Assembly (NCBI RefSeq): GCF_000710915.1
Contig: NZ_BAUA01000174.1
Span: 1-64,000, forward strand
DNA from: Nocardia brasiliensis IFM 10847
GTDB taxonomy: Bacteria; Actinomycetota; Actinomycetes; Mycobacteriales; Mycobacteriaceae
DNA: 64,000 nucleotides
Direction of reading: 5' to 3'
Shown here: piece after piece, positions 2,677-19,946 of the stretch
How positions within the stretch are numbered: position 1 is the first letter of the stretch
Layout: every line of letters begins with the position of its first letter
Position numbers and translations under genes: made by a program
The notes under the pieces: model-generated
What the model saw: only the letters and a program-made list of their open reading frames with translations
What the model was told of the DNA's origin: nothing
The model's database searches: none

Positions 2677-2758
2677 ATTTCGGATGCCCGCGCGCGGCGG
2701 TCGTTGTTAGCCTGCTTGCCTCAGCTTGCCTGTCCGAGCACGAAACCTAGGAGTCTCG

Positions 2759-5700
2759 GTGGTCCACGACGATCGGCCCGCGTCACCGTTCAGCGTCCTG
2801 CCGACGCGCCTCGACCTGCCCGCGGCCGAATCGTCGATCATCGAATGGTGGCGGGCGCAGCGCATTTTCGCGCGCAGCCTGGAGCGCACCGCGGACGGGC
2901 CGCGGTGGGGGTTCTACGAGGGCCCGCCCACGGCCAACGGGTCGCCGGGCGTGCATCACGTCGAAGCCCGGGTCTTCAAGGACGTCTTCCCGCGGTTCAA
3001 GACCATGAAGGGCTATTCGGTGCCGCGGCAAGCTGGTTGGGACTGCCACGGGCTGCCGGTCGAGCTGGCGGTGGAGAAGGAACTGGGCCTCAACGGGAAG
3101 CCGGAGATCGAGAAATTCGGCGTCGCCGAATTCAACGCGCGTTGCCGGGAATCGGTGCTGCGCCATGTCGGCGAGTTCGAGCGGATGACCGAACGCATGG
3201 GGTATTGGATCGATCTGGCACATCCGTACACCACCATGTCGCCGGAATACGTCGACAGCGTGTGGTGGTCGTTGCAGCGGATCTTCGAGCGCGGACTGCT
3301 CACCGAGGACTTCCGGGTGGCGCCGTACTGTCCCCGGTGCGGTACCACGCTGTCGGATCACGAACTGGCGCAAGGGTATGAGACCGTCACCGATCCGTCG
3401 GTCTACGTGCGCCTGCCGCTGGTGGATCCGGTGGCCGGCCTCGACGGTGTCGAGCTGCTGATCTGGACCACGACGCCGTGGACCCTGCCCGCCAATACCG
3501 CCGTCGCCGTCCATCCGGCGGTGAACTACGTGGTCGCGCGCACCGACGCCGGGACATTCCTTGTCGCCGAGACCCTTTCGGCCGCGGTGCTCGGGGATGG
3601 CGCGCAGCGGCTGGCCGAGGTGCCCGGCGCGGAGCTGGCCGGCCTGCGCTATCGCCCCGCCTTCGACCTGGTCGACATCCCGAACGCACATCGAATCGTG
3701 CTCGCCGACTACGTGACCACAGCGGACGGTACCGGTCTGGTTCATCAGGCTCCGGCGTTCGGCGCCGACGATCTCGTCGTCTGCCAGGCCAACGGGCTGC
3801 CACTGGTCAATCCGATCGAGTCCGACGGCCGGTTCTTCGGCGACCTGCCACTGATCGGCGGGCTGTTGTTCACCGACGCCGATCCGGTGCTGATCCAGGA
3901 ACTCCAGCGACGCGGACTGCTGTTCCGCCGCACCGATTTCGAGCACAGCTACCCGCACTGCTGGCGCTGCCACACCCGGCTCATGTACTACGCGCAGCCG
4001 TCCTGGTACATCCGGACCACCGCGGTGCGCGAGCAATTGCGGCACGAGAACGAGCGGACCAACTGGTTCCCGGAGACCATCAAGCACGGACGTTTCGGTA
4101 ACTGGCTCGACAACAACATCGACTGGGCTCTCTCCCGCAGTCGCTACTGGGGGACCCCACTTCCGTTGTGGCGCTGCGAGAACGGGCACGTGACCGCAGT
4201 CGGCTCGCGCGCCGAACTCGGCACTCTGGCGGGCGCCGACGTGTCGAGCATCGATCCGCACCGTCCGTACATCGACGCCGTGACCTTCGCCTGTCCGCAG
4301 TGCGCGACCACGGCCACCCGCGTGCCCGAGGTGATCGACGCTTGGTACGACTCGGGGTCGATGCCGTTCGCCGCCTTGGGCTATCCGCACGTCGAAGGCA
4401 GCGTCGCGGCGTTCCAGCGCAACTATCCGGCGCAGTACATCTGCGAGGCCATCGACCAGACGCGCGGCTGGTTCTACACCATGATGGCGGTGGGCACGGT
4501 GGTGTTCGATCGGTCCGCGTACGAGAACGTCGTGTGCCTCGGGCTCATCCTGGCCGAAGACGGCCGCAAGATGAGCAAGCACCTCGGCAACGTGCTCGCC
4601 CCGGTCCCGCTGATGGACGCGCACGGCGCCGACGCACTGCGCTGGTTCATGGCCTGCTCGGGTTCGCCGTGGTCGGCGCGCCGGGTCGGCCCCGGCCCGC
4701 TCGACGAGATCACGCGGCGTCTGCTGATGACGTACTGGAGCACCGCGTCCTTCTTCGCGCTCTACGCGAGCAACTCAGCGTGGCAACCGGATTCGGCACG
4801 CCCGGTGGCCGAGCGCCCGGTGCTCGACCGGTGGATTCTGGGTGAACTGCACACGCTCACCGCGGAAGTGGATGCCCGGCTCGAGTCCTACGACACGACC
4901 GGCGCCGGTCGTCTGCTCGCGGAATTCGTCGACGCGCTGTCGAACTGGTACGTGCGGCGCTCACGGCAACGATTCTGGGACGGCGAACAGGACGCCCTGT
5001 CCACGCTGTTCGAATGCCTCGAGGTCGGCACGCGGCTGCTGGCTCCGTTCATCCCGTTCCTCACCGAACGGGTGTGGCAAGACGTCGTGCGACCGGGCCT
5101 GCCGTCGGCCCCGGATTCGGTGCACCTCGCCGAATGGCCCGGTGCCGACCGGGCATTGATCGATCCGGTGCTGGCCGAGCAAGTACATACCGCGCAGGCG
5201 CTCGCGGAGGCAGGCCGGGCGGCGCGCAAGGCGAGCAAGGTGCGGGTGCGGCAACCGTTGGCGCGGGCGTTCGTCGGCCTGCCACCGGGCGCCGACCTGC
5301 CGCGCGAACTGCTCGACGACGTAGCGGACGAACTGAACGTCAAGAGCCTGCAACGGTTGCAGTCCGCGGCGACGGTGCTCGACATCGGGGTGAAGGCGAA
5401 CTTCCGGGCGCTGGGCAAGCGTTTCGGCAAGCAGACCCAGGCGGTGGCCGACGTGATCCACCGCGCGGACGCGGCCGAGCTGGTCACCCAACTGCGCGAC
5501 AACGGCTCGGCGACAGTGGATTTCGACGGCGTACCGGTCGTGCTCACCGCCGGCGATGTGCTCGTTTCCGAGCTGCCGCGCAGCGGCTGGGTGGTCGAAT
5601 CCCAGCGTGGTGTCACCATCGCGCTGGACACCGAGATCACCCCGGAACTCGCGGCCGAGGGAAGTGCCCGGGATGTGGTACGCGTCGTCCAGAACGCCCG

Positions 5701-5908
5701 GCGCGAAGCGGGCCTGGCGGTCGCCGACCGCATCGTGCTCACCGTCGCCGCGGCGGCCGAGGTGGCGCAGATCGTGCGTCAGCACGAAAACTTCATCGCG
5801 CGCGAGACGCTCGCGACCACCGTGGTATATGCGGATTCGGTCGAGGACGGATTCACCGGCACCGTCGGCACTTCCGCCGAGATCGCGGTGCGGGTCGAAC
5901 GGGTCTGA
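2759..5908 (+). CDS. ileS: isoleucyl-tRNA synthetase
   Basis: Class I aminoacyl-tRNA synthetase of 1049 residues that charges tRNA-Ile in the cytoplasm. The nucleotide-binding HIGH-type segment is GPPTANGSPGVHH (55-67) and the second signature is KMSKH (604-608). GWDCHGLPVELAVEKELG, the editing-domain segment WTTTPWTLPANTAV and the anticodon-binding C-terminal half are all present. This is the long actinobacterial/eukaryote-like class resembling Streptomyces IleS. The GTG at 2759 is favoured by AGGAG seven bases upstream; an in-frame TTG at 2726 lacks a good site. Only 82 nt separate it from iclR, so there is no space for the T-box leader that precedes ileS in several actinobacteria. It converges with the kinase gene, with one base between the stops. 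Confidence 0.95.
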   Translation: MVHDDRPASPFSVLPTRLDLPAAESSIIEWWRAQRIFARSLERTADGPRWGFYEGPPTANGSPGVHHVEARVFKDVFPRFKTMKGYSVPRQAGWDCHGLPVELAVEKELGLNGKPEIEKFGVAEFNARCRESVLRHVGEFERMTERMGYWIDLAHPYTTMSPEYVDSVWWSLQRIFERGLLTEDFRVAPYCPRCGTTLSDHELAQGYETVTDPSVYVRLPLVDPVAGLDGVELLIWTTTPWTLPANTAVAVHPAVNYVVARTDAGTFLVAETLSAAVLGDGAQRLAEVPGAELAGLRYRPAFDLVDIPNAHRIVLADYVTTADGTGLVHQAPAFGADDLVVCQANGLPLVNPIESDGRFFGDLPLIGGLLFTDADPVLIQELQRRGLLFRRTDFEHSYPHCWRCHTRLMYYAQPSWYIRTTAVREQLRHENERTNWFPETIKHGRFGNWLDNNIDWALSRSRYWGTPLPLWRCENGHVTAVGSRAELGTLAGADVSSIDPHRPYIDAVTFACPQCATTATRVPEVIDAWYDSGSMPFAALGYPHVEGSVAAFQRNYPAQYICEAIDQTRGWFYTMMAVGTVVFDRSAYENVVCLGLILAEDGRKMSKHLGNVLAPVPLMDAHGADALRWFMACSGSPWSARRVGPGPLDEITRRLLMTYWSTASFFALYASNSAWQPDSARPVAERPVLDRWILGELHTLTAEVDARLESYDTTGAGRLLAEFVDALSNWYVRRSRQRFWDGEQDALSTLFECLEVGTRLLAPFIPFLTERVWQDVVRPGLPSAPDSVHLAEWPGADRALIDPVLAEQVHTAQALAEAGRAARKASKVRVRQPLARAFVGLPPGADLPRELLDDVADELNVKSLQRLQSAATVLDIGVKANFRALGKRFGKQTQAVADVIHRADAAELVTQLRDNGSATVDFDGVPVVLTAGDVLVSELPRSGWVVESQRGVTIALDTEITPELAAEGSARDVVRVVQNARREAGLAVADRIVLTVAAAAEVAQIVRQHENFIARETLATTVVYADSVEDGFTGTVGTSAEIAVRVERV

Positions 5909-5909
5909 G

Positions 5910-7640
5910 CTAGAGGCGCGCCTCCTGCCGCAGCTGCGCGAACCACGAAACCTCGTTGGCCGAGGCCATGTTCGGGTCCGCGAGGCGATGGCGGACACCG
6001 GCGACGAAGCTGTCGGCGACCGCCTCGTCGCCCGCCGCCAGCAGCAGCGCGTAGCGGATGACGTGAGTGCGCTGGGGAGCGCGGCCGAAGCGGATGTCGA
6101 AACCGTACTGCTCGCCCAACTCGTCGGCGTGCTGCACGATATCGCGCCAATCGGCGTCGATCATCGGATAGTTCGAGCGGTGCGGACCGCTCAGGCTGCC
6201 GACCAACTGCCGGTCGTACAGGGACGTGACGACCTCGGCGGCGTCGAATGCCGTGGCGAGGCCGCACAGGTCGGCCACTGTGTCCACGGCGTGCCCCCGA
6301 TAGGTGAGTGCGGCGGTGGGGGCGAGCTTGGCGGTGAAATAGGTGGCGAGTTCTTCCGGACCCCAGCCGTCGCCGTAGGACTTCAGCTCGGCATACGAAT
6401 CACCGGTGCGGACATCGTCGACGAGCCAGTTGAGCAGCGCGGCACGGCCGCGACCGGCCAGCGCGCGGGCGGCGGGTTCCGGATAGCCCGCCATCGCGGC
6501 GCCGAGCGACGCGCTGTCGTGAAACGTGCCGACGCCGGGCAGTGCGAACGGCATCAGGGCCCGCCGCGCTCGGCTCGCGGGTTCCTCGGCGTTCGGCGCG
6601 GCGCGGTGCACCGCCGGGGCTTTCCCGGCGAGCCACGCCTCGACCTCGGTGAACCCCCAGCGTTGCCGCGGATCTCGGGTCAGCAGGCCGGTCAGCAGTC
6701 GCTGCCACCGGCTGCGCATCGCGGGCCGCAGCGCCAGGTCGTCCAAGGCGGCCAAGGAGATATCGCGGGTGTTCACCTCGGCGTCGATGGTGCTGTCCGC
6801 CAGCTGCCTGCCCGCGTCGTCCTCGAAGTAGCCGCGGCCGACGGGCACTCGGTAGAGCACCATGCCGACACTCCACCAGTCGTCCTCGACTCGCCAGCGT
6901 TGCGGCGCACCCGGTGCGCTGTAGGCGGCGGTGCCCTGACCGGTATTGGTGATCTTCGACCGGCCGCCCAGATCTACCGCGAGGCCGAAGTCGGCGAGCA
7001 CCAACTCCAGCGGCGAATCCGAACGCACCAGAATGTTGCGGGGATTCACGTCTCCGTGCACGAGTGTGCCGCCGTCCGGCCGCTGCAACGCGTGCAGCTT
7101 CGTCGCGAGCTGGCGCAGCACCTCCACCGCGAGATCCGCTGTGCCACCGTGCGGATCACGCTCCCGCAAGAAGCTGTCGAGCGAGCCGAACCGGCAGTAC
7201 TCCATCACCTCGAAATGGATGTCCAGGTCGCTGCCGCGCTCGAAGACGCGCACCGAATGTTCGGCCCGGAAGCTGTTCCGGTACTGCGGCGCCTCGAAAT
7301 CCACGCGGTAGCGGGGCACCTGGTGGAACAGCTTGATCGCGAAGTCGTGCCCGTTGGTGGCCCGGCACAGCCACACCGTCGCCTCGCCACCGCTGCCGAG
7401 CTTGCGCTGCACGGTGAATCGGGAAGCCAGCGCGGGCGGCAGCGGCTGGAACGCATCGTGCGGGCTGCTGTCGATCCGAGTCTGCGGCGCGGGCGGGCGC
7501 GGGGCGGTCTCGCTGTGCGCGGTGCTGCCGGGATCATCGAGCCGAGTCGGCGGCGCACTGGTGCCGGTGCGATCCAGTCGCGTCTGCGGTGCCCCCCGCC
7601 GACCGGAATCGGGGGCGTCCATGCGTGTTTCGTCAGCCAT
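5910..7640 (-). CDS. Ser/Thr protein kinase with N-terminal TxxD repeats
   Basis: A 576-residue cytoplasmic protein. Residues 1-60 are a disordered tail with four near-identical motifs, TRMD (T5), TRLD (T20), TRLD (T32) and TRID (T54). The Hanks-type kinase domain starts near 75: glycine loop LGSGGEATV (81-89), catalytic Lys103 in FAIK, catalytic loop HGDVNPRN (Asp197, with HGD in place of HRD), and ADFGLAVD (Asp217). A conserved but unrecognised C-terminal region of about 200 residues follows; no membrane segment is seen. The ATG at 7640 has GAAGGAG upstream and overlaps the phosphatase stop by 8 nt. It is the last gene of a 12-gene operon. pThr-x-x-Asp is a classical FHA-binding pattern, and an FHA protein is encoded two genes upstream. 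Confidence 0.85.
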   Translation of the reverse strand: MADETRMDAPDSGRRGAPQTRLDRTGTSAPPTRLDDPGSTAHSETAPRPPAPQTRIDSSPHDAFQPLPPALASRFTVQRKLGSGGEATVWLCRATNGHDFAIKLFHQVPRYRVDFEAPQYRNSFRAEHSVRVFERGSDLDIHFEVMEYCRFGSLDSFLRERDPHGGTADLAVEVLRQLATKLHALQRPDGGTLVHGDVNPRNILVRSDSPLELVLADFGLAVDLGGRSKITNTGQGTAAYSAPGAPQRWRVEDDWWSVGMVLYRVPVGRGYFEDDAGRQLADSTIDAEVNTRDISLAALDDLALRPAMRSRWQRLLTGLLTRDPRQRWGFTEVEAWLAGKAPAVHRAAPNAEEPASRARRALMPFALPGVGTFHDSASLGAAMAGYPEPAARALAGRGRAALLNWLVDDVRTGDSYAELKSYGDGWGPEELATYFTAKLAPTAALTYRGHAVDTVADLCGLATAFDAAEVVTSLYDRQLVGSLSGPHRSNYPMIDADWRDIVQHADELGEQYGFDIRFGRAPQRTHVIRYALLLAAGDEAVADSFVAGVRHRLADPNMASANEVSWFAQLRQEARL

Positions 7641-8385
7641 CGTCGTCTCCTTCGCCGTCACAGGCCACAACCTGCAGAACGGTCACGTTGTCGCCGCCGC
7701 CGCCCGCGATGGCCAGATCGCGGAGCTGTGCGGGCAGGTCGGCCGCGCCTGCCGCGAAGAGTCGTTCGATCGCTTCGGGTTTCGTGTAGTCGTCGAGGCC
7801 GTCCGTGCACAGCAGCATGCCGGGGTACGAAGGCAGGCGGCAGTCGAAGAACGCCGGATCGAGCAGGGTGCGCCGGCCGCCGCCGAGGGCCTGCTGTAAC
7901 CGATTCGATCGGGCCGCACGGTGATCCAGCGACAGCTGGGCCAGATAGCGACCTTCCAGCCGGTAGGCGCGCGAATCGCCGACGTTGAACACCAGCGCGG
8001 ATCCGTCCGGGTGCACGGTCACCCCCGCCACGGTGCAGCCCATGCCGCGCAGGTCGGCTCGTTGCTCGCCGAGGTCGTCGAGTGTCTCCGAGATCCGTTG
8101 CAGCAGCGCGCCGATGACGGCTCTGGTCTGTTCGGGCCCGGCCGACGCGGCGACCGTCGCAGGCGCGGTGAGGGATTCGCAGGCCAACCGGCTGGCGGTC
8201 GCGCCCCCGGCATGGCCGCCGAGCCCATCGCAGACGACGAGTGTGGTGGGGCGGTCGACGCGTAACTCGGTGGTGATCGGCGCGGGCATCGCGCCCTGCA
8301 ACGCCCAACCGCCCCAGCCCAGCGCGTCCTCGTTGTGCGCGCGGGTCAGTCCGCGGTGGGTCACCGCGGCGATCCGGATCCGCAT
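7633..8385 (-). CDS. PP2C-family Ser/Thr protein phosphatase
   Basis: A 250-residue metal-dependent phosphatase comprising only the catalytic domain. PP2C motifs in order are THRGLTRAHNEDA near the N-terminus, VVCDGLGGHAGG (metal-binding Asp and Gly), NVGDSRAYR, LLCTDGLDDY and the C-terminal GGGGDNVTVL. All metal-ligand aspartates seem present, so it should be active. The ATG at 8385 shares one base with the stop of the FHA gene (TGATG); longer reading upstream is coding for the FHA protein in another frame. It sits between the FHA and kinase genes, so it probably reverses phosphorylation by the adjacent kinase, including that of the kinase's own TxxD tail. Confidence 0.9.
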   Translation of the reverse strand: MRIRIAAVTHRGLTRAHNEDALGWGGWALQGAMPAPITTELRVDRPTTLVVCDGLGGHAGGATASRLACESLTAPATVAASAGPEQTRAVIGALLQRISETLDDLGEQRADLRGMGCTVAGVTVHPDGSALVFNVGDSRAYRLEGRYLAQLSLDHRAARSNRLQQALGGGRRTLLDPAFFDCRLPSYPGMLLCTDGLDDYTKPEAIERLFAAGAADLPAQLRDLAIAGGGGDNVTVLQVVACDGEGDDDG

Positions 8386-8825
8386 CAGGGCTCCCATTCG
8401 ATGGTGACGGGCACGTCGGCGGCGAGCCGCAGGGTGTCGCCGCGACTGATCGGGTGCTCTTCGTGCTGTGGTATCCGGACGTCGTTCACGAACGTGCCGT
8501 TGGTGGAGGTATCGGTGAAATACAGGCGATCGCCGTCGTAGCGCAGCTCCCCGTGGAAACGCGAGACATTGGTGTAGTTCTCGAAAACCACTGCGGCGGG
8601 GAACCCTTCGTCGCGGCCGATGCCCACGAGCTGGCCGGGCAGGATTCGCAGTCGTGCGCCCGAGGCGAGGACGAGTTCGAGCGGCCCACCGCGCGAGGAG
8701 GTTTCGGGTTCCGGTGGCGCCGACGTATCCGGCAGGTCGTGGCCGCAGTTCGGGCACATCAGCGTCGGTGCGCCGCGGCTGCCGCAGGCGGGACAGGTGA
8801 CTTCTCCGTCGGTCAGGTCAGCCAT
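8385..8825 (-). CDS. zinc-ribbon/FHA-domain phosphothreonine-binding protein
   Basis: A small adaptor of 146 residues. The N-terminus has a two-knuckle zinc ribbon with Cys11, Cys14, Cys24 and Cys27 (CPACG and CPNCG), then a Pro/Ser linker, then an FHA domain from about residue 55. Its diagnostic residues are visible: GIGR, SRFHGEL and DTSTNGTFVND. The ATG at 8825 overlaps the radical SAM stop by 13 nt. FHA domains bind phosphothreonine peptides; the likely partners are the TxxD repeats of the kinase in the same operon. The zinc ribbon may dock it on another operon product. The binding partners are inferred, the domains are read directly. Confidence 0.88.
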   Translation of the reverse strand: MADLTDGEVTCPACGSRGAPTLMCPNCGHDLPDTSAPPEPETSSRGGPLELVLASGARLRILPGQLVGIGRDEGFPAAVVFENYTNVSRFHGELRYDGDRLYFTDTSTNGTFVNDVRIPQHEEHPISRGDTLRLAADVPVTIEWEP

Positions 8826-9469
8826 GACGCGTCGTCCAGCTCGATGTCCTGCTCGGACAGCGCCGCGGTCAGCGCCGCCATATGACCTGGCAACGGAATA
8901 CCGACCAGCCGAACGGTTCCGCTCTCCACGTGCACGCCGAGTTCTCGTCGTTGCACGGCATAACTCGTGAAGTCCGGTCCGAGGTAGCGTTCGCGGCCGA
9001 GGTCGGTCAGCACGTGCACGTGCTGGTTCGATGAGCCGCGCAGCGGTTCGCACCCCGCCTTGGCGGCGACGAACGGCTCGCTCACCAGGACGTCGACGGC
9101 GTCGAACACCCACGCGCATTTCGCGCGTAACCATTTCGCCGAGCGGCCGGAGAACAGCAGGACGTCCAGCGGCGCACCGGTTTCGGCGTTCCGGCGCTCG
9201 ATTCCGGCCAAGAGGGCACGCAATGCCTCGGGTTGGTCGGTGGGCTCGCCGCCGGAGATGGTCACGCCGTCCAGCGGTCCCGGAGTGCGCCGTAACCACT
9301 CGAGGACCCGTCGGACATCGCAGCGCGTCGCTTCGTCGGATGCCCAGGTATCGCGGGCCAGGCAGCCACGACAGCCGATCGTGCAGCCTTGGAACCAGAC
9401 GCCCGCGCGGGTGCCGAAGCCCAGATTGCTCACCGGATAGTGCAAGCGTGACAACAACATCGACGTCAT
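8813..9469 (-). CDS. small radical SAM protein (activase-like, single 4Fe-4S)
   Basis: A 218-residue protein with the radical SAM cluster motif CTIGCRGC (Cys29, Cys33, Cys36) just after VWFQG, followed by the SAM-binding GGE motif in VTISGGEPTDQPE. This short architecture resembles NrdG/pyruvate formate-lyase activases and other minimal radical SAM enzymes; no SPASM or extra cluster domain is visible. The ATG at 9469 is joined to the ATPase stop by an ATGA overlap; an ATG 18 nt upstream is also possible. It is encoded between the AAA+ ATPase and FHA genes. There is no glycyl-radical enzyme nearby, so the substrate is unknown; a protein or peptide of the same operon is the obvious candidate. 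Confidence 0.8.
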   Translation of the reverse strand: MTSMLLSRLHYPVSNLGFGTRAGVWFQGCTIGCRGCLARDTWASDEATRCDVRRVLEWLRRTPGPLDGVTISGGEPTDQPEALRALLAGIERRNAETGAPLDVLLFSGRSAKWLRAKCAWVFDAVDVLVSEPFVAAKAGCEPLRGSSNQHVHVLTDLGRERYLGPDFTSYAVQRRELGVHVESGTVRLVGIPLPGHMAALTAALSEQDIELDDASWLT

Positions 9470-11304
9470 GCCAGGGTCACCGTCCATCCGTCGTCCGACT
9501 CGGCCAGATCCGTCACCGTCGCCGCGTCGGTACCGGACGGCAGGTCGAACAGCGCCCGCGCCAGCGGATTGACCAGCAGTGCCTCCACCGCGGCGGCCAC
9601 ACCGCCGCCGCCGAAGTCGAGCCGGGTCAGCGCCGCGGCCAGCAGCTGCTTGCGGACCGCGTCCTCGACCGTCACCGTGATGCCGGTGGTGGCGCGGACC
9701 CGGTCGATGACGTTCGAGACGAACTGCGGAACCAACTGCGCGGCAGTTTCGTCGGAGATGAAATCGAAGATCACCACGTCGTCGCCGATCCGGCGCAGCA
9801 ACTCCGGCCGGCCGATCTCCTTGGTGAAGTAGTCGGCGATCGCCGCTCGGATGGTCGATTCGACCGTCGTGTACGGCGTGCCCCGGGCCACGATCGGCAC
9901 CCGCTGCCCGGTCGAATCCGTCCGGTACACACCGAGATTCGAGGTGAACACGATGAGCGTCTCGGAGAAGTACACGGTAGACCCGCTGCCGTCGGTCAGC
10001 CTGCCGTCACCCAGGATCTGCAGGAACTTGTCCAGAATCCGCGGCGCGGCCTTTTCGATCTCGTCGAACAGGATCAGCCGGAAAGGCTGCTGGCGCACCG
10101 CGTTCGTCAGTTCGCCGCCCGCGCTGTGCCCGGTGTATCCCGGTGGCGCGCCGATCAGCCTCGCCTCGGTGTGCTCGGCGGAGAACTCGCTCATATCGAA
10201 CCGGACGAACGCGTCGGCGCGGCCGAAGACGAGTTCGGCGATCGACTTGGCCAGTTCGGTCTTGCCGACTCCGGTCGGTCCGGCGAAGAACAGCACGCCC
10301 TGCGGGCGGGTGCCGCTGCCCGCCGTGTGGGCGCCGGTCAGTCCCATCGCAGAACGGATCAGGATGTCGACCGACTTGCGCACGGCGACCGGCTGGCCGA
10401 GCACCTTCGCGCCGAGCAGCTTCGTGCCCATCCGGATCCGCTGCTTGAGCGCCGCGTCCTGCCAAGGGTTTTCGGGGATGCCGACGCGAAAGGTGCGGAT
10501 GGCGTCCTCGATCCGCTCGGCCGGAATCCGCCGATCGATGGCCAGGCGGTTGATCTCCTTGATCGAGCGCAGCGTCAAACCACTGGTCTGCCCGGCGTAG
10601 CTGTCGACGACGGCGTGGTACTGCACCGAATCCCGCAGGGGCGCTTCAGGGAGCGACGAGATGAGCAGCGCGACCACCGCGCGACGTTGCGCGAGCCCGG
10701 CGGCCGGAATGGAGACCACCCGGGCGAGCTGTCCGCTGATCATCCAGTGCGGCAGGTCGTTTTCCCGGTCCAGCAACCAGAAGACCGTGTTGTACAGCGA
10801 TGTCCGATGTGGTCCCGGCACGGTGCGCCGGGGCGCGCCGGTCATCAGCCGCTCGGCGGTGATGAAGACGCGGTGCAGTTCCGCACTGCCCAGATCCGCG
10901 GCGGGGACCAGCCGGGAGGCCGAGTCGATGATCAGGCAACAGGGGCGTTCGGAGAGCACGACATCGTGCAGCACCCGGCGCAGCAGCGGTAGCGGATCGG
11001 TCGGTGTCCGGGAATTCGACGAGGCGGCGGCGCCGACGATCGCGGCGGCTACGCCGCCGTCGTCCATCATGACGCGCGCGCCGTCCACCGGATCGAGTGC
11101 GATCACCGACCGATGCCCCGCCTCCGCCAGCACGCTGCGCAGCGCCTCCGCCACGCTCACCAGCCTGGTCACAGTGCCGTCGGGGCCGGGCAGCAGCACG
11201 AGATCGCGCAGCGCGCCAGTGACCATGATCTGCGGGTTCGCGGCCAGCGCCACATCGATCTCGCGCAACCAGGACGGCAGCGCCTCGACCACGGGGGAAC
11301 TCAT
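9466..11304 (-). CDS. ClpA/ClpB-like AAA+ ATPase with degenerate N-terminal half
   Basis: A 612-residue protein. The C-terminal half is a ClpB-type D2 AAA+ module: Walker A GPTGVGKT (342-349), Walker B ILFDEIEK (411-418), the pore-loop-type GAPPGYTGH, sensor-1 region VFTSNLG and the arginine-finger segment GRPELLRRIGD. The first 280 residues look like a diverged ATPase: a Walker-B-like LIIDSAS is visible but there is no P-loop. It probably forms a hexameric remodeller or a switch rather than a processive unfoldase. The ATG at 11304 overlaps the preceding stop (ATGA), and the radical SAM gene follows with the same overlap. The substrate and any partner protease are unknown; a CHAT protein lies three genes upstream. 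Confidence 0.85.
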   Translation of the reverse strand: MSSPVVEALPSWLREIDVALAANPQIMVTGALRDLVLLPGPDGTVTRLVSVAEALRSVLAEAGHRSVIALDPVDGARVMMDDGGVAAAIVGAAASSNSRTPTDPLPLLRRVLHDVVLSERPCCLIIDSASRLVPAADLGSAELHRVFITAERLMTGAPRRTVPGPHRTSLYNTVFWLLDRENDLPHWMISGQLARVVSIPAAGLAQRRAVVALLISSLPEAPLRDSVQYHAVVDSYAGQTSGLTLRSIKEINRLAIDRRIPAERIEDAIRTFRVGIPENPWQDAALKQRIRMGTKLLGAKVLGQPVAVRKSVDILIRSAMGLTGAHTAGSGTRPQGVLFFAGPTGVGKTELAKSIAELVFGRADAFVRFDMSEFSAEHTEARLIGAPPGYTGHSAGGELTNAVRQQPFRLILFDEIEKAAPRILDKFLQILGDGRLTDGSGSTVYFSETLIVFTSNLGVYRTDSTGQRVPIVARGTPYTTVESTIRAAIADYFTKEIGRPELLRRIGDDVVIFDFISDETAAQLVPQFVSNVIDRVRATTGITVTVEDAVRKQLLAAALTRLDFGGGGVAAAVEALLVNPLARALFDLPSGTDAATVTDLAESDDGWTVTLA

Positions 11305-12407
11305 TGTTCGGCACTCCGTTCCACGGCGGATCGGCGGACGGTCGCGGCCGTCTGCGGCGCGGGCACGACTTCGACGGCGGCCAATCCTGCCCCGGACTGC
11401 CGGAACCGATCGGGTACTACGCCATGTGCGCGTAGCCGATCCGGCAGTGCGCGGAGGTCGGCACAGATCTCGCCCTGCGCGGACAAAGTGACTTCCTCGG
11501 GCTCCGCACCGGTCTGCACCGTGCGAATATCGATCTCCCCGTTGACGATCCGGGCTCGCACGCCCATCGCCGCCGATCCGGGCGCGGTGAGCACGATCGA
11601 TCCGGCGGTGTCCATGGCGACGGGTGTGACCGCATAGCCGAGGTCCGTCAGGGCCTGCTGCACCGCGTCGAGCACGAATCGGCGCTCGCGCGTGGCGTCT
11701 TCGTGTGCGATCCGTTCAGCGACGCGTGCGCGGGCCTGTGCCAGCTCCGCCGTCGGATCGAGCCCACGGTCGAGAAGGCGTTCGGCGCTGTCGAGTAACC
11801 GGGCGATGCTGCTCGGGTCGGCCAGTTCTGTTGCGGCGGCGCGTAGTTCTGCGAGTTGCTCGCGATCGGCCGTTGCCCTGCGGGTTGCCGTGTTGGCGGC
11901 GGCGATGCGCGAATCGAGTTCGCTGAGCAGCATTTCGGCCCGCGCCGGGTCGGTGCACCGGAGCACCGCCGCGCCCGCCTGCACGAGCTCGGGCGCCGGG
12001 ACGAGCAGGGTGGTGAGCAGTCGATCGACACGTGTAGTCAATCGAGCGTGGGTGGACGTATCCGGCTCGGCGCGCTCGATTTCCGACCCCACGGGCTGAG
12101 TTCGGGCAAGGTCGGCGAGCGCCGTCGCCACGTCGCGGCTGACCTGTTCGGCCCGCTGCTGGGTTTGTGCCTGTTGGATGGCGGGTTCCGCCGCGGCGAG
12201 GGCGGTCTCCCATTGTTCGCACGCCGCGTTGATCTCCGCGGACGTCGTGTACCGGCCGGCGGGTGCTTGGGGCGCGGGAAGGCCGACCGCGGTGCACCGT
12301 GCGGACACCCGGGCGGCGCGCGCGCCGAGCACGCGCAGCCGCCGCTGCGCCTGTGCGCGCAGGGTGTGTTCGGGCACGACCTGATAGCGGATGGCGGCAC
12401 TGCTCAT
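11301..12407 (-). CDS. alanine-rich coiled-coil protein of unknown function
   Basis: A 368-residue protein that I do not recognise. It is rich in Ala, Arg, Glu and Gln and has long predicted helices (roughly residues 10-40 and 60-240) with heptad-like spacing, for example ALAAAEPAIQQAQTQQRAEQ and RRATADREQLAELRAAATEL. A shorter beta-rich C-terminus carries GSIVLTAPGSAAMGVRARIVNGEIDIRTV-like strands. No signal peptide or membrane segment is seen. The ATG at 12407 follows the membrane-protein stop by 3 nt and its own stop overlaps the ATPase start, so it is firmly part of the operon. A structural or adaptor role between the ATPase and the membrane protein is possible but unproven. Confidence 0.65.
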   Translation of the reverse strand: MSSAAIRYQVVPEHTLRAQAQRRLRVLGARAARVSARCTAVGLPAPQAPAGRYTTSAEINAACEQWETALAAAEPAIQQAQTQQRAEQVSRDVATALADLARTQPVGSEIERAEPDTSTHARLTTRVDRLLTTLLVPAPELVQAGAAVLRCTDPARAEMLLSELDSRIAAANTATRRATADREQLAELRAAATELADPSSIARLLDSAERLLDRGLDPTAELAQARARVAERIAHEDATRERRFVLDAVQQALTDLGYAVTPVAMDTAGSIVLTAPGSAAMGVRARIVNGEIDIRTVQTGAEPEEVTLSAQGEICADLRALPDRLRAHGVVPDRFRQSGAGLAAVEVVPAPQTAATVRRSAVERSAEQ

Positions 12408-12983: not shown

Positions 12984-13103
12984 GGGAACGGCTAACCGCG
13001 CGGGGAAGTGGTGCGCGAGTACTGCATGGGTTGGCCTTTCGTCGGCGGCGGACAGTCGCCACGGGGCGTTGCCGTCGATTCTCCCGCTGCGCAAGGGGCG
13101 TCG

Positions 13104-14573
13104 TCAGTCGTGCGATCGACCGACAGCGGCGTCGTGCGCCTGGCTCGGCCCGGCGGGTTCGCGCGCGGGCGCGACGGTGCTGGTGAGTGCGGCCCAGACG
13201 ATCGGGGAACACGACGTCGCACCGGTGTCGCGCCAGGCGCACAGCTGCTCGCGCTGCCAACGCGCCAGTGCGGCAACGGGATCGGAGTCGTTGTGCGCGT
13301 CGTCGACCTGCAGGGCGAGTTCCGTGGTCGGGCGTCGCGCGGGCGGCAGGCCGAGACAGGAGCGGAAGGCGGCATCGGTGGGCAGCACCCAGCGGGTGGT
13401 GGTGACCAACTCCGCGCCCGCGTCGAGCGCGGCCATGATCAACCCGAAGGTCTCGGCGGACCGGAAGTCGACGCCGCCTTCGCACGCGATGATCGCGACC
13501 CGGCTCGGCATCGGCCAGATCTCGTGGCCGAACTGCGGGCGGGTCGCGCCGTAGCGGGTCCATACCTCGGGGTCGTCGGATCGGGTTGTGCCCAAGAGGA
13601 AGTCGAGCGCGCAGAGCGGAAGATGCGCGCCGCGGGTGTCACCCGGGGCCCCGCCGCGCGGCGCGGCCAGACCCCACACCCCACCCGGCTCGTCGGGCGG
13701 TCCGACGACATCGCCGAGATGAATTGCCGCGGAGCCGGGTTCGTTCGGCGTCGCCGAGACATGGCCGAAGTACAGAAATCTGGAGCAGCCCCGAATCAGT
13801 GCCGCGCTGAGTTGCACCCGGGTGACTTCGCCCTGCACCGGCACCAGGGCAGGCACGGGTCGCGCGGCGCGGTCCTGCCCCCGGCGGCGATGCGTACCGC
13901 GGCCGGCCGTGCGGCGCTCGCGCACGACCCGGCTCTCGAACGCGCCCAGCGCGCCGAGGTCGTCGAGATGGCGAAAGACGTTGTGCAGTGCTGGTTGTGC
14001 GCTGGCCGGCAGAACAGGGTCGATCACGTGCAGTGGCGGCAGCTGTCGCTGCTGGGCCCAGGGCACCGGCGGCCTGCTGCGGCCGACATGCAGTGTCGCG
14101 GGTGGGTCGTAGACGATCTCCGCGATATCCAGCAGCCGGCGGTCACCGTCGAGCACGAGCAGTTCCCACGGCACCTGGGCGAGCCGGGCACTCGGGGTGA
14201 CCCTGATCCGGATGCGCCGAGCGTCGGCGTACTCGGCCAGCCGGTTGCGCACGTCGCGGGGCAGCAGCGCGTCGGCGAGGCGCGTCGACAGAGCGTGTTC
14301 GGTGGCGTACGCGGCGAAGGCGCCGATGGTGAGCGCACGTCGCACGGCCTCGGGGTCGGATTCTTGCCGAGCGTCGCCGCCGTTCCCGGTCGCCGGCGGG
14401 CGCGGGTGTGGCAGTGCGTCTTCCAGGGCGCCGAAGACCCTTTCCCGTTCTCGGGCATCGAGTCGGCAGACAGTGGGCGTGCGCGCCGCGTCCAACCAGG
14501 TCCACGACAGGTAGGTGTCGCCCGCATCGGCGGCGCGTACGAGCAGTTCGATCTCGGCGGCCGGGTCGTTCAC
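13104..14573 (-). CDS. CHAT-domain (caspase-like) protease
   Basis: A 489-residue protein. The C-terminal half shows the CHAT pattern: a strand ending in the catalytic His, FLYFGHVSAT (His271), a Ser/Gly-rich segment SAAIHLGD, then VAIIACEGG with the catalytic Cys364, and AGAELVTTTRWVLP. The segment EIVYDPPATLHV before it also fits the family. So the Cys-His dyad looks intact and it should be a cysteine protease. The N-terminal 130 residues are helical and unrecognised. The GTG at 14573 overlaps the previous stop (GTGA). CHAT proteases act as executioners or regulators in bacterial conflict and cell-death systems; here it is accompanied by TPR, ATPase and phospho-signalling proteins. Confidence 0.75.
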   Translation of the reverse strand: MNDPAAEIELLVRAADAGDTYLSWTWLDAARTPTVCRLDARERERVFGALEDALPHPRPPATGNGGDARQESDPEAVRRALTIGAFAAYATEHALSTRLADALLPRDVRNRLAEYADARRIRIRVTPSARLAQVPWELLVLDGDRRLLDIAEIVYDPPATLHVGRSRPPVPWAQQRQLPPLHVIDPVLPASAQPALHNVFRHLDDLGALGAFESRVVRERRTAGRGTHRRRGQDRAARPVPALVPVQGEVTRVQLSAALIRGCSRFLYFGHVSATPNEPGSAAIHLGDVVGPPDEPGGVWGLAAPRGGAPGDTRGAHLPLCALDFLLGTTRSDDPEVWTRYGATRPQFGHEIWPMPSRVAIIACEGGVDFRSAETFGLIMAALDAGAELVTTTRWVLPTDAAFRSCLGLPPARRPTTELALQVDDAHNDSDPVAALARWQREQLCAWRDTGATSCSPIVWAALTSTVAPAREPAGPSQAHDAAVGRSHD

Positions 14574-16033: not shown

Positions 16034-17352
16034 GCCCCGCCCCTCGACTGTTCGACCGCCCACCGGACGGCATGCAGGATGACATCCGCAGCGGCGACGG
16101 GGTCCATCGCCAGCGCGTGATCCGGGCGTTGCTGTGCCCAGGCCGCTGCGCACCAGGCGGTGAGTGCGGCGGTGTCACCGATCAGGAGTTCGGCTTCGAG
16201 GCCGGGCAATCCCAGCAGCCGCAGCACGAGGTCGTATTCCGCCGCCGCACCGATGCCGAGTGGGATCTCGGCACGGTGCCGGATCAGACACGTCCGCAGC
16301 GCGGTGAGCAATTCGTCCCTGGCGGTGCCGTGATCGGCGGTGTCCGCAGCCGCATGATCGCCGAACTGTCTGTGTGACTTCATTTTCGCCTCGCCGCGCA
16401 CGAGCCAGCCCAGGCGCGCGTAGAACATGCGCCGAGCATCCTCGTCGGTCATGGCGCAGCCGCGGCGGATCGCCCGCAGCAGCGCGCGGTGGGTGCGCGC
16501 CCTGGCCTCGGTCAGGTGTTCCGACCGGCGTTCGAGCTGGACGGGCGGTGGCACGCCGGCCAGGGTGTGCCGCCGGATCGCCGCGACGACGTCCTCGTAC
16601 TCCTTGTCCACGAACCGGAGCAGGTCCTCGGTGCGCGCCGATGCCTGCGGTGCGGTGGGCAGATCCAGGTCGTATTCCGCGATGAGGCGGTCCGCACTGT
16701 CGATCAGCCGTGCGATGAGCGGTTCGACCGCGTCGAACGGCAGCCCGCAGCGATCAGCGACGGCGACGTGGTCGCGGTCGAGCATTCTCGCCTGATCCAG
16801 TACGCCGTCGGCGAAGGCGAGGACCGCCGACTGCCGATGCGCGCCGCGGTGTTCGACGGCGTCCGCGGCGACCTGCGTCACGAACGACGTGGCCATCTGC
16901 TCGGTGCCGAGCACGCCGGGTTCGGCGGCGGAGCCACGCACGAGGCGGAGGTGGACCGCGGTGCAGGCCGTCGAGCGGGCTTGTTCGCGGAAAGGATCGC
17001 GCAGCTTGTTCGGAATTCCGGTCGGACGCAACGCCCAGGTCGCGTAGTAATACGAGACCACGTAGCGCGCGAGCGGATCGGCGAAGTCGCCGTACAGGTT
17101 TCGGACGCGCCGCCACCCGGTCAACTCGGTCGTCGGTGGCGCACCCGCGCAGACGGTTGCCGCTCGGCCGTAGCGGCGGGCGACCCAGTCGGGTTTCGAC
17201 AGATCCAGCGACCACGCGTTCACCTGATGGGTCAAGCACTTACGGTCCACGGGAACCCGCGCAGCCGATGCACGCACCCAACGATCGACGAAGGCACGCC
17301 GTGTGTCGAGTTCCTCGGTTTCGGTAGTCGTTGCGGGCAATTCGGCTACCAC
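16030..17352 (-). CDS. unrecognised helical protein of the CHAT/AAA+ operon (440 aa)
   Basis: A 440-residue protein that I cannot assign. It is mostly helical and rich in Arg and Ala, with several Trp/Tyr-containing segments (VVSYYYATWALRPTG, MFYARLGWLVRGE) and no membrane segment. YVVSYYYATW might form a buried hydrophobic helix. The GTG at 17352 overlaps the TPR stop by 7 nt, and its own stop overlaps the next ATG by 4 nt. Its position between the TPR protein and the other unknown suggests a role in the same complex. An effector function cannot be excluded because no enzymatic motif is visible. Confidence 0.6.
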   Translation of the reverse strand: MVAELPATTTETEELDTRRAFVDRWVRASAARVPVDRKCLTHQVNAWSLDLSKPDWVARRYGRAATVCAGAPPTTELTGWRRVRNLYGDFADPLARYVVSYYYATWALRPTGIPNKLRDPFREQARSTACTAVHLRLVRGSAAEPGVLGTEQMATSFVTQVAADAVEHRGAHRQSAVLAFADGVLDQARMLDRDHVAVADRCGLPFDAVEPLIARLIDSADRLIAEYDLDLPTAPQASARTEDLLRFVDKEYEDVVAAIRRHTLAGVPPPVQLERRSEHLTEARARTHRALLRAIRRGCAMTDEDARRMFYARLGWLVRGEAKMKSHRQFGDHAAADTADHGTARDELLTALRTCLIRHRAEIPLGIGAAAEYDLVLRLLGLPGLEAELLIGDTAALTAWCAAAWAQQRPDHALAMDPVAAADVILHAVRWAVEQSRGGA

Positions 17353-19946
17353 ACCGCCACCTCCCCAGGACGCTCGATGGGCGCGTAGGCGGCGTCGGCG
17401 GCCGCCAGGTACGGGGCGAGCGCCACGTGCCCATCGGGCATGCGCAGCCGCGGTGGCGGTCGCATCGGCAGGATCGCACCGGAGATCAGCGCGGCCGCAC
17501 CGCTGATGCCGGATTCGGCCAGGCTGTGGTCGGTCGTCGTATCCGACATGTCTGCGCCTGAGACGGCGAGCGCGGCGAGGGTGGCCTGTAGGTCACCGCC
17601 GTCGTCGGCCGAATGATGCTCGGCCACATGGGTTCCGGAATTGATCGTGGTCTCGATCAGATCGGCCAGGAGCGTGGTGTCGCCGAGTTGATCCGCCCAC
17701 TGGAACATTCCGGCCTGGATCACCGCGTTCATCTCGCGCCAGGAGATGCGGGCCGCGGCGGAGGCGAAGCCGAAGCGCTGGGCGTCGACGAAAACCGCTG
17801 CGGGCAAGCCTTGTTCGAGCGCGACGCGCACGTCGCCGGCTTCGGCGGCTGCCGCCGCGCCGATCAGATCGCATTTGGCGGCGGTGACCACGTCACCGAT
17901 GTCGAGGGTGACCTGTCGCGCAGCTCTCGCGCGCGCGAGAGCTGCGTCGTAGTGCCCGGAGATCAGTTCGGCGCAGCCGAGATTGAGCAGCCCGACGGCG
18001 TGATAGCGACCATTGGCGGGGTCGGAGTCGAACACCGTGAGGACGGATTCGGTGAGTTCGGCGCCGATACTGTGGTCGCCCTGCATGATGAGCGCGCCAC
18101 CCAGGCTCAGCCGGGCGACGGCCGCCTGGAACAGCAGACCCGAGCGCGTCAGCTCGGCCGCGGCCGTGCGGAACGCGTCCGCTGCCTGCCGGTAGCGACC
18201 GGCCCGCATGTGCAGCCCGCCGATGAGTGATTCGGTGTGGGCGGTGAAAGGGTGGTGTTCGAACTCGTGCAAACCGGCACGTCCGCGCTCGAGTGCTTCC
18301 TCCGCTTCGGCGCAACGTCCGGTCTGGTAGTACACGAGGCCGAGATGTAGATCGGCGGTGGCGAGTTCGGTGCGGAGCCCGAGCAGGACGTATGCCTGGC
18401 GGGCGCGGATCAGCAGATCCTCCGCCACGGCGTAGTGGCTCAGATGGTATTGACAAAGGCCGCTGAATTCCAGGCACTGAGCGGCCACCGCCCATTCCTG
18501 TGCCTGCTCGGCACCGGCTCGCACCTCGTCCAGCATCGTCAGCGCTTCGGTGAAATCACCACCGCCGTGCACGATCAGCCGACTTTCCTCCAGGAGACAG
18601 GAGCGGAGCAGTTCCTCCGAGTCGGCGTAGCGGCGTGCCTGCGCGAACAGGTGCCGAGCTGCCTGGATACGCCCGCGATGACCCTGTACCACACCGGTAT
18701 CAAGGAGACACTGCGCGTAACGCGGGTCGCTGCGATGATTCTCGAAGACCGCGGTCGCATCGCGCAGCAACTCCGCGGCCTCGGCGAAATCGCCCATCGA
18801 GATTCGCACCGTGGCGAGGTGCATATCGCATTCGGCTACGTCGAGCAGTTCGCCCGCCCCCACATAATGCGCTCGCGCACGCCGATAGGCCGCCGTGGCG
18901 TCCTCGTAGTCGCTGCAATTCTGTAGCACTATCCCGAGGGTCACATCAGCGGCTGCGGCGAGGCCGGGTTCATCCGCCGCCAGCCACTGTGCGCGGACAA
19001 CGGTGAATTCGACGATCGCCGCGCGTAACCGGCCCGCGCGCAGGTGGAGTTCGCCTGCCCGGAAACGGGACTGACCCGCCTGCAAATGCCTGCCCGCTGC
19101 CGCATACCCCGCGCCGGCCGCGCTGAACGCGGCCGCCGCATCCTCCTTGCGTCCGTCCGCGAGGTACAGCTCGGCGAGTTCCTCATCGCAGTTCGCGGCC
19201 CCAGCAGCATTCCCCTCGACCGTTGCTGAGGCCTTCGCGCGAACGAATTCCTGTTCCGCCGTGGCGGTCTCACCCAACTCCCGGCACGCCAGCCCGATCG
19301 CGTAGGAGCATGCGCCGGTCCGCGACAGCTCCCCGGCCCGCTCGTAAAGCTCTCGGGCGGTGCGATGTTCGTCGCGGACCCGGTGCGCGTCCTCGATTTC
19401 CATCGCCGCCTCGCCGCAGGACTCCCGGCATTCGGCGGCCTCGACGATCCGGTCGACGGCGAGGTAGCGCTCGGCGGCGCGTCGCCACACGATCATGGCT
19501 TCGCGGAACTGGCCCGTGTCGGCGAGCGCGCTGCCGAGGATCGCGTCGCAATCGGCCTGCTCTTCGAGATCGCCGAAGCATTCGAGCCCGGTGGCGGCCC
19601 GGCGCAGATACGGCACCGCGCGCTCGGGCTGTTCCAGCACATCGAAGCCACGGCCGGCCATTTCGGCGCATTCGACGGACAATTCGGTGAGCGGCCCCGC
19701 GGCGAGCAGATCCGCGGCACGCGCATACGCGTCGGTCGCCTGCTCCACCTGTTCCGATTCCGCGTGCGCGGCGCCGATTCCGTAGAGGCATTCGGCGGTG
19801 CGTTCGGTCTGCTCCGCGCCGTCGCATTCGGCCAGCGCGGCGGTGAACGCGCCGATCGCGTCGGCGGCGTTCCCGTCCTCGAGCAGGGCTAGGCCGTGCA
19901 GGAAAACGGCGCTCGGCCATGGTGATGCAGGCGGGGGAGCGGTCAT
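17346..19946 (-). CDS. large tetratricopeptide-repeat protein
   Basis: An 866-residue protein made almost entirely of about 40-residue helical repeats with TPR-like spacing: FLHGLALLEDGNAADAIGAF, CLYGIGAAHAESEQVEQATD, ADVTLGIVLQNCSDYEDATA, CLEFSGLCQYHLSHYAVAED, ADLHLGLVYYQTGRCAEAEE and MLGNLGC-like blocks through about residue 740. Cysteine is unusually frequent for a TPR scaffold. The last 100 residues contain a non-repeat tail. The ATG at 19946 overlaps the microprotein stop (ATGA). TPR proteins pair with CHAT proteases in known peptide-sensing systems, where the TPR part recognises the trigger. That is the likeliest role here, but the ligand is unknown. Confidence 0.8.
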   Translation of the reverse strand: MTAPPPASPWPSAVFLHGLALLEDGNAADAIGAFTAALAECDGAEQTERTAECLYGIGAAHAESEQVEQATDAYARAADLLAAGPLTELSVECAEMAGRGFDVLEQPERAVPYLRRAATGLECFGDLEEQADCDAILGSALADTGQFREAMIVWRRAAERYLAVDRIVEAAECRESCGEAAMEIEDAHRVRDEHRTARELYERAGELSRTGACSYAIGLACRELGETATAEQEFVRAKASATVEGNAAGAANCDEELAELYLADGRKEDAAAAFSAAGAGYAAAGRHLQAGQSRFRAGELHLRAGRLRAAIVEFTVVRAQWLAADEPGLAAAADVTLGIVLQNCSDYEDATAAYRRARAHYVGAGELLDVAECDMHLATVRISMGDFAEAAELLRDATAVFENHRSDPRYAQCLLDTGVVQGHRGRIQAARHLFAQARRYADSEELLRSCLLEESRLIVHGGGDFTEALTMLDEVRAGAEQAQEWAVAAQCLEFSGLCQYHLSHYAVAEDLLIRARQAYVLLGLRTELATADLHLGLVYYQTGRCAEAEEALERGRAGLHEFEHHPFTAHTESLIGGLHMRAGRYRQAADAFRTAAAELTRSGLLFQAAVARLSLGGALIMQGDHSIGAELTESVLTVFDSDPANGRYHAVGLLNLGCAELISGHYDAALARARAARQVTLDIGDVVTAAKCDLIGAAAAAEAGDVRVALEQGLPAAVFVDAQRFGFASAAARISWREMNAVIQAGMFQWADQLGDTTLLADLIETTINSGTHVAEHHSADDGGDLQATLAALAVSGADMSDTTTDHSLAESGISGAAALISGAILPMRPPPRLRMPDGHVALAPYLAAADAAYAPIERPGEVAVW

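Follow-up and report, generated by a model that had tools for sequence, protein, structure and literature searches.

A kinase tail in Nocardia brasiliensis as a candidate multisite phosphothreonine docking array for a neighbouring FHA protein

Can a bacterial protein kinase carry, in its own disordered tail, the docking sites for an FHA protein encoded beside it? The question is raised by a 64,000-nucleotide stretch of Nocardia brasiliensis IFM 10847 DNA (contig NZ_BAUA01000174.1, positions 1 to 64,000; the window), in which a Hanks-type kinase with four T-R-[MLI]-D tetrapeptides near its N-terminus shares a gene run with a zinc-ribbon FHA protein and a PP2C-type phosphatase. To our knowledge, natural ligands have been identified for few bacterial FHA domains. 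Here the sequence alone points to a candidate ligand, to the two positions that matter in it and to a candidate reader, and a small set of peptides would suffice to test the prediction. Comparison of related loci, which span actinobacterial genomes of several families and a Clostridial plasmid, suggests that the kinase tail is probably an array of several phosphothreonine docking sites, with the FHA protein of its operon as reader. The features on which the argument turns are these.

5910..7640, minus strand: Hanks-type Ser/Thr kinase, 576 aa (ATG at 7638-7640; Pfam PF00069, E 8.7e-26, 91.3 bits)
7443..7640, minus strand: predicted disordered N-terminal tail, kinase residues 1-66, which holds the four T-R-[MLI]-D sites
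7617..7628, minus strand: TRMD site, T5 (codons ACA CGC ATG GAC)
7572..7583, minus strand: TRLD site, T20 (codons ACG CGA CTG GAT)
7536..7547, minus strand: TRLD site, T32 (codons ACT CGG CTC GAT)
7470..7481, minus strand: TRID site, T54 (codons ACT CGG ATC GAC)
8385..8825, minus strand: zinc-ribbon and FHA-domain protein, 146 aa, the proposed reader (PF00498, E 3e-14, residues 69-134)
7633..8394, minus strand: PP2C-type phosphatase, the proposed eraser (PF13672, E 1.1e-14, 54.9 bits against a cut-off of 24)

The kinase tail and its relatives

The kinase domain occupies residues 75-333 and a family-specific C-terminal region about 365-576. The PF00069 match and the catalytic Lys, Asp, Asn and DFG place the protein among the Hanks-type kinases; K103, D197, N202 and D217-F218-G219 are invariant in an alignment of seven kinase sequences, with HGD replacing HRD. 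The invariant tail columns of that alignment are P18, P30 and T32. The tail is predicted to be disordered, as a reading made from the sequence alone had supposed. In an AlphaFold2 model built on a shallow alignment of seven rows (mean predicted local distance difference test score, pLDDT, 58), residues 1-60 score about 25-27, and ten-residue blocks across most of 61-340 score 52-90, dropping to about 27-32 at 221-250.

T5, T20, T32 and T54 do each begin a TR[LMI]D tetrapeptide, as that sequence-only reading had it, and TRxD is found nowhere else in the 576 residues. Composition shuffles of the tail contained a mean of 0.12 TRxD, and none of 100,000 reached the observed four; for the looser TxxD the mean was 0.95, and 539 of 100,000 reached four. 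In the window as a whole, clusters by the three patterns used occur in just one of 584 stop-to-stop frames of at least 60 aa, that of the kinase. The four copies use different codons and are thus not the product of recent DNA slippage.

A marker from the kinase C-terminal region found the window's own genome alone among 397 genomes of the order, and that genome and one further locus, L047, among 396 of the phylum. Kinase homologues were not found on plasmids at E 1e-20. Because the C-terminal marker found so few, the search was switched to the ClpB-like ATPase of the same gene run, which was identified in related loci by tblastn. With its N-terminal half as query, 8 of 394 class genomes and 5 of 396 phylum genomes yielded related loci, each figure including the window's own genome. 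The operon family is rare, present in 8 of 150 Nocardia genomes including that of the window.

The window kinase is 94% identical to the genes of N. brasiliensis NBRC 14402 and N. vulneris NBRC 108936, and N. brasiliensis-type kinases retain four sites. Other close relatives are 43-49% identical and their sites differ: TRLD and TRID in L007/L034; TRRE, TRTD and TRVE in L008/L035; TRIE, TRTD and TRIE in L009/L036; TTID, TTLD, TTLD and TAID in N. caishijiensis (L010/L037/L044); and two TFIE in Mycobacterium sp. GA-1841 (L045). Since these tails vary at +1, the conserved part is the Thr and the acid at +3, not the Arg. Seven loci of the class encode kinases only about 30-32% identical, all with T-x-x-[D/E] tail sites. 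These are TEFD/TELD in L063, TRRD/THRD/TRRD in L064 and L065, three TRRD in L066, five TQRD in L067, TRLD/TQLD/TELD in L068 and TRLD/TRVE/TRIE in L069, where TRLE and TRFE lie further upstream in frame. Thus the pThr-x-x-Asp-like pattern first proposed stands in its Thr and its acid at +3, and TR[LMI]D itself is one form, that of N. brasiliensis-type kinases, of a more general T-x-x-[D/E] rule. At the sequence level the tails form arrays of the pTXXD kind (Thr, acid at +3, +1 and +2 free), except in L047 and L083. A short piece that matches parts of kinase residues 48-130 at 62-77% identity was also detected (L038, 8490-8663), elsewhere in a Nocardia genome (G048) that has the full operon.

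Pooling the tails brings out the two positions. With tail ends set by hand near the conserved L-P preceding the kinase domain, and with starts taken strictly, 37 of 67 Thr in 12 non-redundant discovery tails have D or E at +3, against 10.6 expected. None of 20,000 pooled shuffles, which treat the tails as unrelated and ignore kinship, reached 37 (mean 10.4, maximum 22). The remaining offsets from -5 to +6 gave 3 to 14, with 9.6-10.8 expected. Before start trimming the +3 count was 40 of 70 (11.1 expected; remaining offsets from -6 to +7, 3 to 15 with 9.8-11.3 expected), a set that includes TVSD of L063 and two L069 sites upstream of the first usable start. Ser in the same discovery tails shows no such preference (4/30 at +3, 4.9 expected). 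The +1 residue is identical in 42 of 52 pairs of sites within a tail but in 233 of 728 pairs between tails, which suggests that the middle residues became settled lineage by lineage, with Thr and +3 fixed.

Kinases outside the family provide a control. In 26 Nocardia kinase frames from 22 loci no comparable array was found; acid stood at +3 in 5/34 cases before the kinase domain (2.7 expected) and 28/389 after it (30.3 expected). A later search of one family, that of L064-L066, in which the module had seemed more frequent, found it in 11 of 61 genomes, two of them already known, and gave 10 new loci. All nine testable kinases have at least two T-x-x-[D/E]; the tenth locus, L106, has an FHA gene and no kinase in the fetched stretch, as is also the case for L081. 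In eight counted tails 22 of 28 Thr have the acid at +3 (4.2 expected; 0 of 20,000 shuffles), the next-highest offset being -4 with 8/27 (4.0 expected), and Ser gave 0/13 (1.7 expected). In this set L105 begins at a frame edge and L107 has a printed start codon of GTC, so both starts are uncertain; L103, at a contig edge, is in the tally of nine and not in the 28; and TSND and TFRD (L101) and TGDE (L110) were counted as TxxD/E. Over all 20 non-redundant tails, from which L065 and L004-L006 were excluded, 59 of 95 Thr carry a +3 acid, against 14.7 expected. Conservation in homologues had been named as a check on the repeats, and the answer is strongly positive, with the Thr and the +3 acid kept in 20 tails.

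The FHA protein and its association with the array

The FHA and PP2C genes lie directly upstream of the kinase, with overlapping ends, which bears out the claim that one operon encodes all three. The FHA protein scores 53.6 bits with PF00498 (cut-off 20.7) and has the conserved Gly-Arg, Ser-x-x-His and Asn-Gly; G70 R71, S88 R89 H91 and N109 G110 are invariant in nine FHA sequences. Its AlphaFold2 model has a mean pLDDT of 78 and a predicted template modelling score of 0.60, with 79-91 per block over residues 51-130. Foldseek matches of the model include CEP170, FhaA and Rad53 FHA1, and the best-scoring solved structure for the FHA profile is the SLMAP FHA domain (6ar0). PP2C membership is given by the PF13672 match above its cut-off; against the Stp1-type model NF033484 the protein reaches 110.9 bits, under the cut-off of 230.

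Some FHA proteins carry the motif themselves. In the linkers before the FHA domain of 12 discovery loci, T.[LIVMF][DE] occurs six times with 1.0 expected (2 of 10,000 shuffles), the linkers and the pattern having been chosen by hand, the pattern once the sites had been seen. The sites are TILD (L034), TRVD and THID (L036), TSLD (L037), TVLD (L045) and TRLE (L069). For the looser T..[DE] the same linkers have 10 with 5.65 expected (377 of 10,000). The FHA linkers of L107 and L108 contain TRRD, the identical tetrapeptide to that of their own kinases. This linker self-motif is kept as a secondary point, promising in the discovery loci and not in the later ones. Repeats of other kinds were seen as well. 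In the FHA proteins of L064 (12095-13474) and L065 (12151-13707) the second zinc ribbon is preceded by long tandem repeats like GQDWPPAQGGQGA, and the FHA protein of L068 (8266-8928) has three GDTAH[QE]P repeats preceding its zinc ribbon.

The array goes with the FHA gene. At least two T-x-x-[D/E] are present in 25 of 27 kinases of FHA-bearing loci, a number that includes near-identical ones. The remaining two are both kinases of L083, a Clostridial plasmid locus (Aristaeella lactis), and each has three T-x-[hydrophobic]-N. Among the 10 later loci an FHA profile match was found in nine, and the tenth, L102, ends short of that point; the L047 contig likewise ends before any FHA gene could show. 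The L083 kinases (14808-17666 and 6252-7985) are different kinases in one operon with one annotated FHA gene. Their two tails differ at +1 and agree at +3, and the locus is a natural experiment on whether +3 is set by a reader common to both kinases.

Related kinases from Rhizobium and Caballeronia (L075, L076, L078, L079) give the opposite case, with +3 acid after 4 of 35 Thr (5.6 expected). These loci retain the ATPase and radical SAM pair beside a kinase without an array. No FHA domain was detected in them with two profiles over all frames longer than 70 aa, nor by Pfam in six proteins of L075, L076 and L079 (none from L078). The profiles are imperfect: the first missed L082 wholly and the second matched another L082 gene than Pfam's FHA gene. 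The four loci are mutually related and so count as at most two independent cases; kinases of two more Rhizobium loci of the L075 type, L077 and L080, were excluded from the counts.

Weighing the docking array against its rivals

What the sequences support is the array, its conservation, a constraint limited to Thr and +3, the association with FHA genes, and intact catalytic and phosphothreonine-binding residues. The argument rests on the pooled positions and not on single tails; restriction of the motif to Thr, together with its link to FHA genes, favours an FHA reader. From these we infer a possible mechanism. The kinase would place a phosphate on the Thr in every T-x-x-D site, in the simplest case through autophosphorylation in trans. 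The zinc-ribbon FHA protein would bind the phosphothreonine, with the +3 acid as a second specificity point, and several sites per tail would raise avidity or gather several FHA molecules. Through the FHA protein, cargo (the ATPase, the radical SAM protein or, in some lineages, the phosphatase) might be brought to the active kinase to give an output, and PP2C would reset the array.

Several observations weigh against such a docking array. Single tails often lie within chance (of 5,000 shuffles, 311 reach the count of L034, 274 that of L035, 635 that of L036 and 425 that of L037), and so do the TEAD and TDKD sites of L082 (1271 of 10,000). The +3 residue is not always acidic, as N in L083 and Q in L047, which carries two TRLQ, make plain; these N and Q patterns were chosen after the sequences had been seen. 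Other offsets are raised elsewhere, +4 in the FHA-less kinases (11/34, 5.4 expected) and +6 in the control pre-kinase segments (8/34, 2.7 expected). The later loci belong to the family of L064-L066 and therefore bring new sequences to the test but no further lineage. The linker motif is not above chance in nine later FHA proteins (2, with 1.46 expected), and the window's own FHA protein has none. By eye, the residue two before the conserved Ser is an invariant Asn in this FHA family. We take that position to be Arg83 of Rad53 FHA1, a contact to the +3 Asp, in which case the mode of reading +3 would differ. Reversal by a neighbouring phosphatase, also part of the sequence-only reading, may apply to the window operon and would not be general. 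A PP2C gene lies beside 14 of 25 array-bearing kinases of FHA loci, and the other 11 have none in the fetched stretch, some being cut by contig ends. None was found in the stretches fetched for L064-L066, L068, L069, L101, L103-L106, L109 and L110, and L102 is contig-cut.

T-x-x-[D/E] is also a consensus of CK2-type kinases and resembles that of acidophilic kinases, so the kinase itself may be the source of the constraint. This is the rival taken most seriously, although it is given only a small chance: the sites would follow the kinase's own substrate preference and act alone, as a charge switch or by release of autoinhibition, with no FHA reader. Such a role would suit a tail that runs directly into the kinase domain at residue 75 and the commonest residues at -1, which are P (19 of the sites) and E (12). 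It fits poorly with the missing +3 enrichment after Ser, with the lack of arrays in four related kinases of loci where FHA was not detected, and with the motif shared by some FHA proteins. It is unlikely that the tail, phosphorylated or not, serves as a plain array of linear motifs for another partner, be it the coiled-coil protein, the ATPase or an FHA protein encoded elsewhere. The coiled-coil protein and the ATPase are likewise conserved beside the kinase, Nocardia genomes encode further kinases, and an unlinked FHA protein is conceivable. Against this, proteobacterial relatives without a detected FHA domain keep the ATPase and radical SAM genes and have no array, and a strict need for Thr, with no role for Ser, is the constraint expected of an FHA reader.

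The same relatives bear on the idea that the NrdG-like radical SAM enzyme acts on the motif, as on a peptide modification array. Radical SAM matches are present in the related loci whose fetched sequence extends that far, and a 2020 survey, in the parts drawn on here, suggested that a conflict-system radical SAM protein modifies a peptide effector (PMC7159879). Still, the Rhizobium and Caballeronia loci have a radical SAM gene and a kinase with no array and no detected FHA, and this explanation is disfavoured as very improbable. Low-complexity drift or DNA slippage without function was rejected and seems the least credible of all, even with a Pro/Ala/Arg-rich tail in a GC-rich genome, five near-identical 8-residue units in L067 and several single tails within chance. 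Synonymous codons differ between copies in both the window and L067, one pair of positions persists from lineage to lineage, and the offset scans and the later loci add to the codon differences in setting chance aside.

The gene run and known systems

The docking array would work within a longer minus-strand run of close-spaced or overlapping genes. It begins with a TPR protein, two unassigned proteins, a CHAT-like protein and a protein with (by eye) hydrophobic stretches. It continues with a coiled-coil-like protein, the ATPase and the radical SAM protein, and then with the FHA, PP2C and kinase genes. The further features are as follows.

8813..9487, minus strand: NrdG-like radical SAM protein, Fer4_12 (PF13353, E 4.6e-20)
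9466..11304, minus strand: ClpB-like single-AAA ATPase, the marker for related operons (PF07724, E 2e-42)
11301..12407, minus strand: coiled-coil-like protein, by eye (no Pfam match)
13104..14573, minus strand: CHAT-like protein, a possible effector (PF12770, E 6.4e-5, 23 bits, just under the 24-bit cut-off)
17346..19946, minus strand: TPR protein of the same gene run (PF13424, E 1.9e-26)

The order coiled coil, ATPase, radical SAM, FHA, PP2C, kinase is conserved in Nocardia and Mycobacterium relatives, where the coiled-coil-like gene is kept beside the ATPase. Three further window proteins (16030-17352, 14570-16153 and 12411-13094) have no Pfam match and have detectable relatives in some Nocardia loci. 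The next gene downstream of the kinase (2726-5908, plus strand) is presumably ileS-like, judged by eye. In PADLOC the kinase is similar to the kinases of mad6 and PD-T4-6 within its kinase domain, the ATPase matches PDC-M37B, DolB and others in part, there is one marginal TPR match, and seven of ten proteins have no match.

Plasmid loci show other settings of the ATPase and radical SAM pair. In L075, L076, L078 and L079 the next gene encodes a giant protein, about 2100 aa long, that joins a kinase to DUF4011, superfamily 1 helicase and MTES_1575 nuclease domains (Pfam scans of L075, L076 and L079); the L075-type kinase starts with zinc-ribbon-like Cys motifs, by eye. These loci look like a plasmid-borne conflict system. 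A second version occurs on plasmids of Leisingera, Photobacterium, Acinetobacter and Moellerella (L084-L087), in the order helicase-like AAA, PIN protein, hypothetical protein, ATPase, radical SAM, with no annotated kinase (Pfam scans of L084 and L086); in L087 it adjoins antirestriction and integrase genes.

Because the pair occurs on proteobacterial plasmids with a helicase, PIN protein or nuclease, and a CHAT-like protein is found in the Nocardia gene run, a role of the module in defence or cell fate is a fair guess. A fuller picture, offered tentatively and as doubtful, is a mobile module with its own evolvable phospho-address. In it a multivalent kinase-FHA network, created by autophosphorylation and possibly a condensate, would gather the ATPase and the radical SAM protein and fire an effector, for example the CHAT protein, against invaders. 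The kinase tail and some FHA linkers would share a tetrapeptide in which the reader fixes Thr and +3 while +1 and +2 drift by lineage; such lineage-specific middle residues, and the change of D to N at +3, might insulate co-resident modules.

In a survey of largely open-access literature, with subscription papers mostly outside its scope, neither the operon nor a multisite TxxD tail on a bacterial kinase was found described. Systems with similar parts are known. Actinobacterial conflict systems with kinase, PP2C and vWA components often have a zinc ribbon on the kinase, which lies beside PP2C and with NTPases; the sections of that survey cited here do not mention FHA-docking arrays (PMC7159879). 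The Nocardia run also differs in having no vWA domain among the Pfam matches of eight plus six neighbouring proteins, and it does not belong with the vWA-MoxR/GAP1-N2 systems. In the type VI secretion system PpkA, PppA and Fha act in one Thr phosphorylation pathway, according to excerpts of PMC3953482 and PMC12607579, and condensates of PpkA and Fha are reported from Acidovorax (PMC12607579). The likeness is that kinase, phosphatase and FHA genes lie together beside a Clp-type ATPase; as a difference, the phosphothreonine ligand described for Agrobacterium in these sources is a single TssL site and not a kinase array. Membership in that system was rejected (TagH/Fha TIGR03354, 38.3 bits against 120.25; ClpV TIGR03345, 186.3 against 884.95).

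The self-binding FHA proteins GarA, OdhI and DgcB have a disordered phosphothreonine segment adjoining the FHA domain and a specificity point at +3, a residue that is often a specificity determinant of FHA domains in the account drawn on here (PMC6733907). Some FHA linkers of the present loci resemble them in carrying T-x-[LV]-D. In contrast, the main array here is in the kinase, with 2-5 copies and an acidic +3, whereas +3 in DgcB is Val (PMC6733907). A Cdc7 TXXD motif is a ligand of Rad53 FHA1, as given in part of PMC5041073. Here too a Thr and a +3 Asp would form the recognition pair. A difference would be the Asn which, by eye, this FHA family has at the position taken as that of Arg83. 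If the docking reading is true, the variants TRLD, TTLD, TFIE, TRRD, TQRD and TxxN form a series from which the evolution of FHA +3 specificity might be learned.

The closest analogue is MST2/SLMAP (STRIPAK, Hippo), which combines a kinase, a flexible stretch with multiple Thr, an FHA adaptor and a phosphatase. In the portions of PMC5663475 relied on here, MST2 autophosphorylates several linker threonines that bind redundantly to the SLMAP FHA adaptor, which brings the phosphatase. MST2 differs in that its sites are pThr-Met, lie C-terminal to the kinase and are served by PP2A; the Nocardia sites, known from sequence, are T-x-x-D, N-terminal and paired with PP2C. If the Nocardia tail does work in this way, multisite docking of an FHA adaptor on a kinase tail, known from Hippo, arose in bacteria too.

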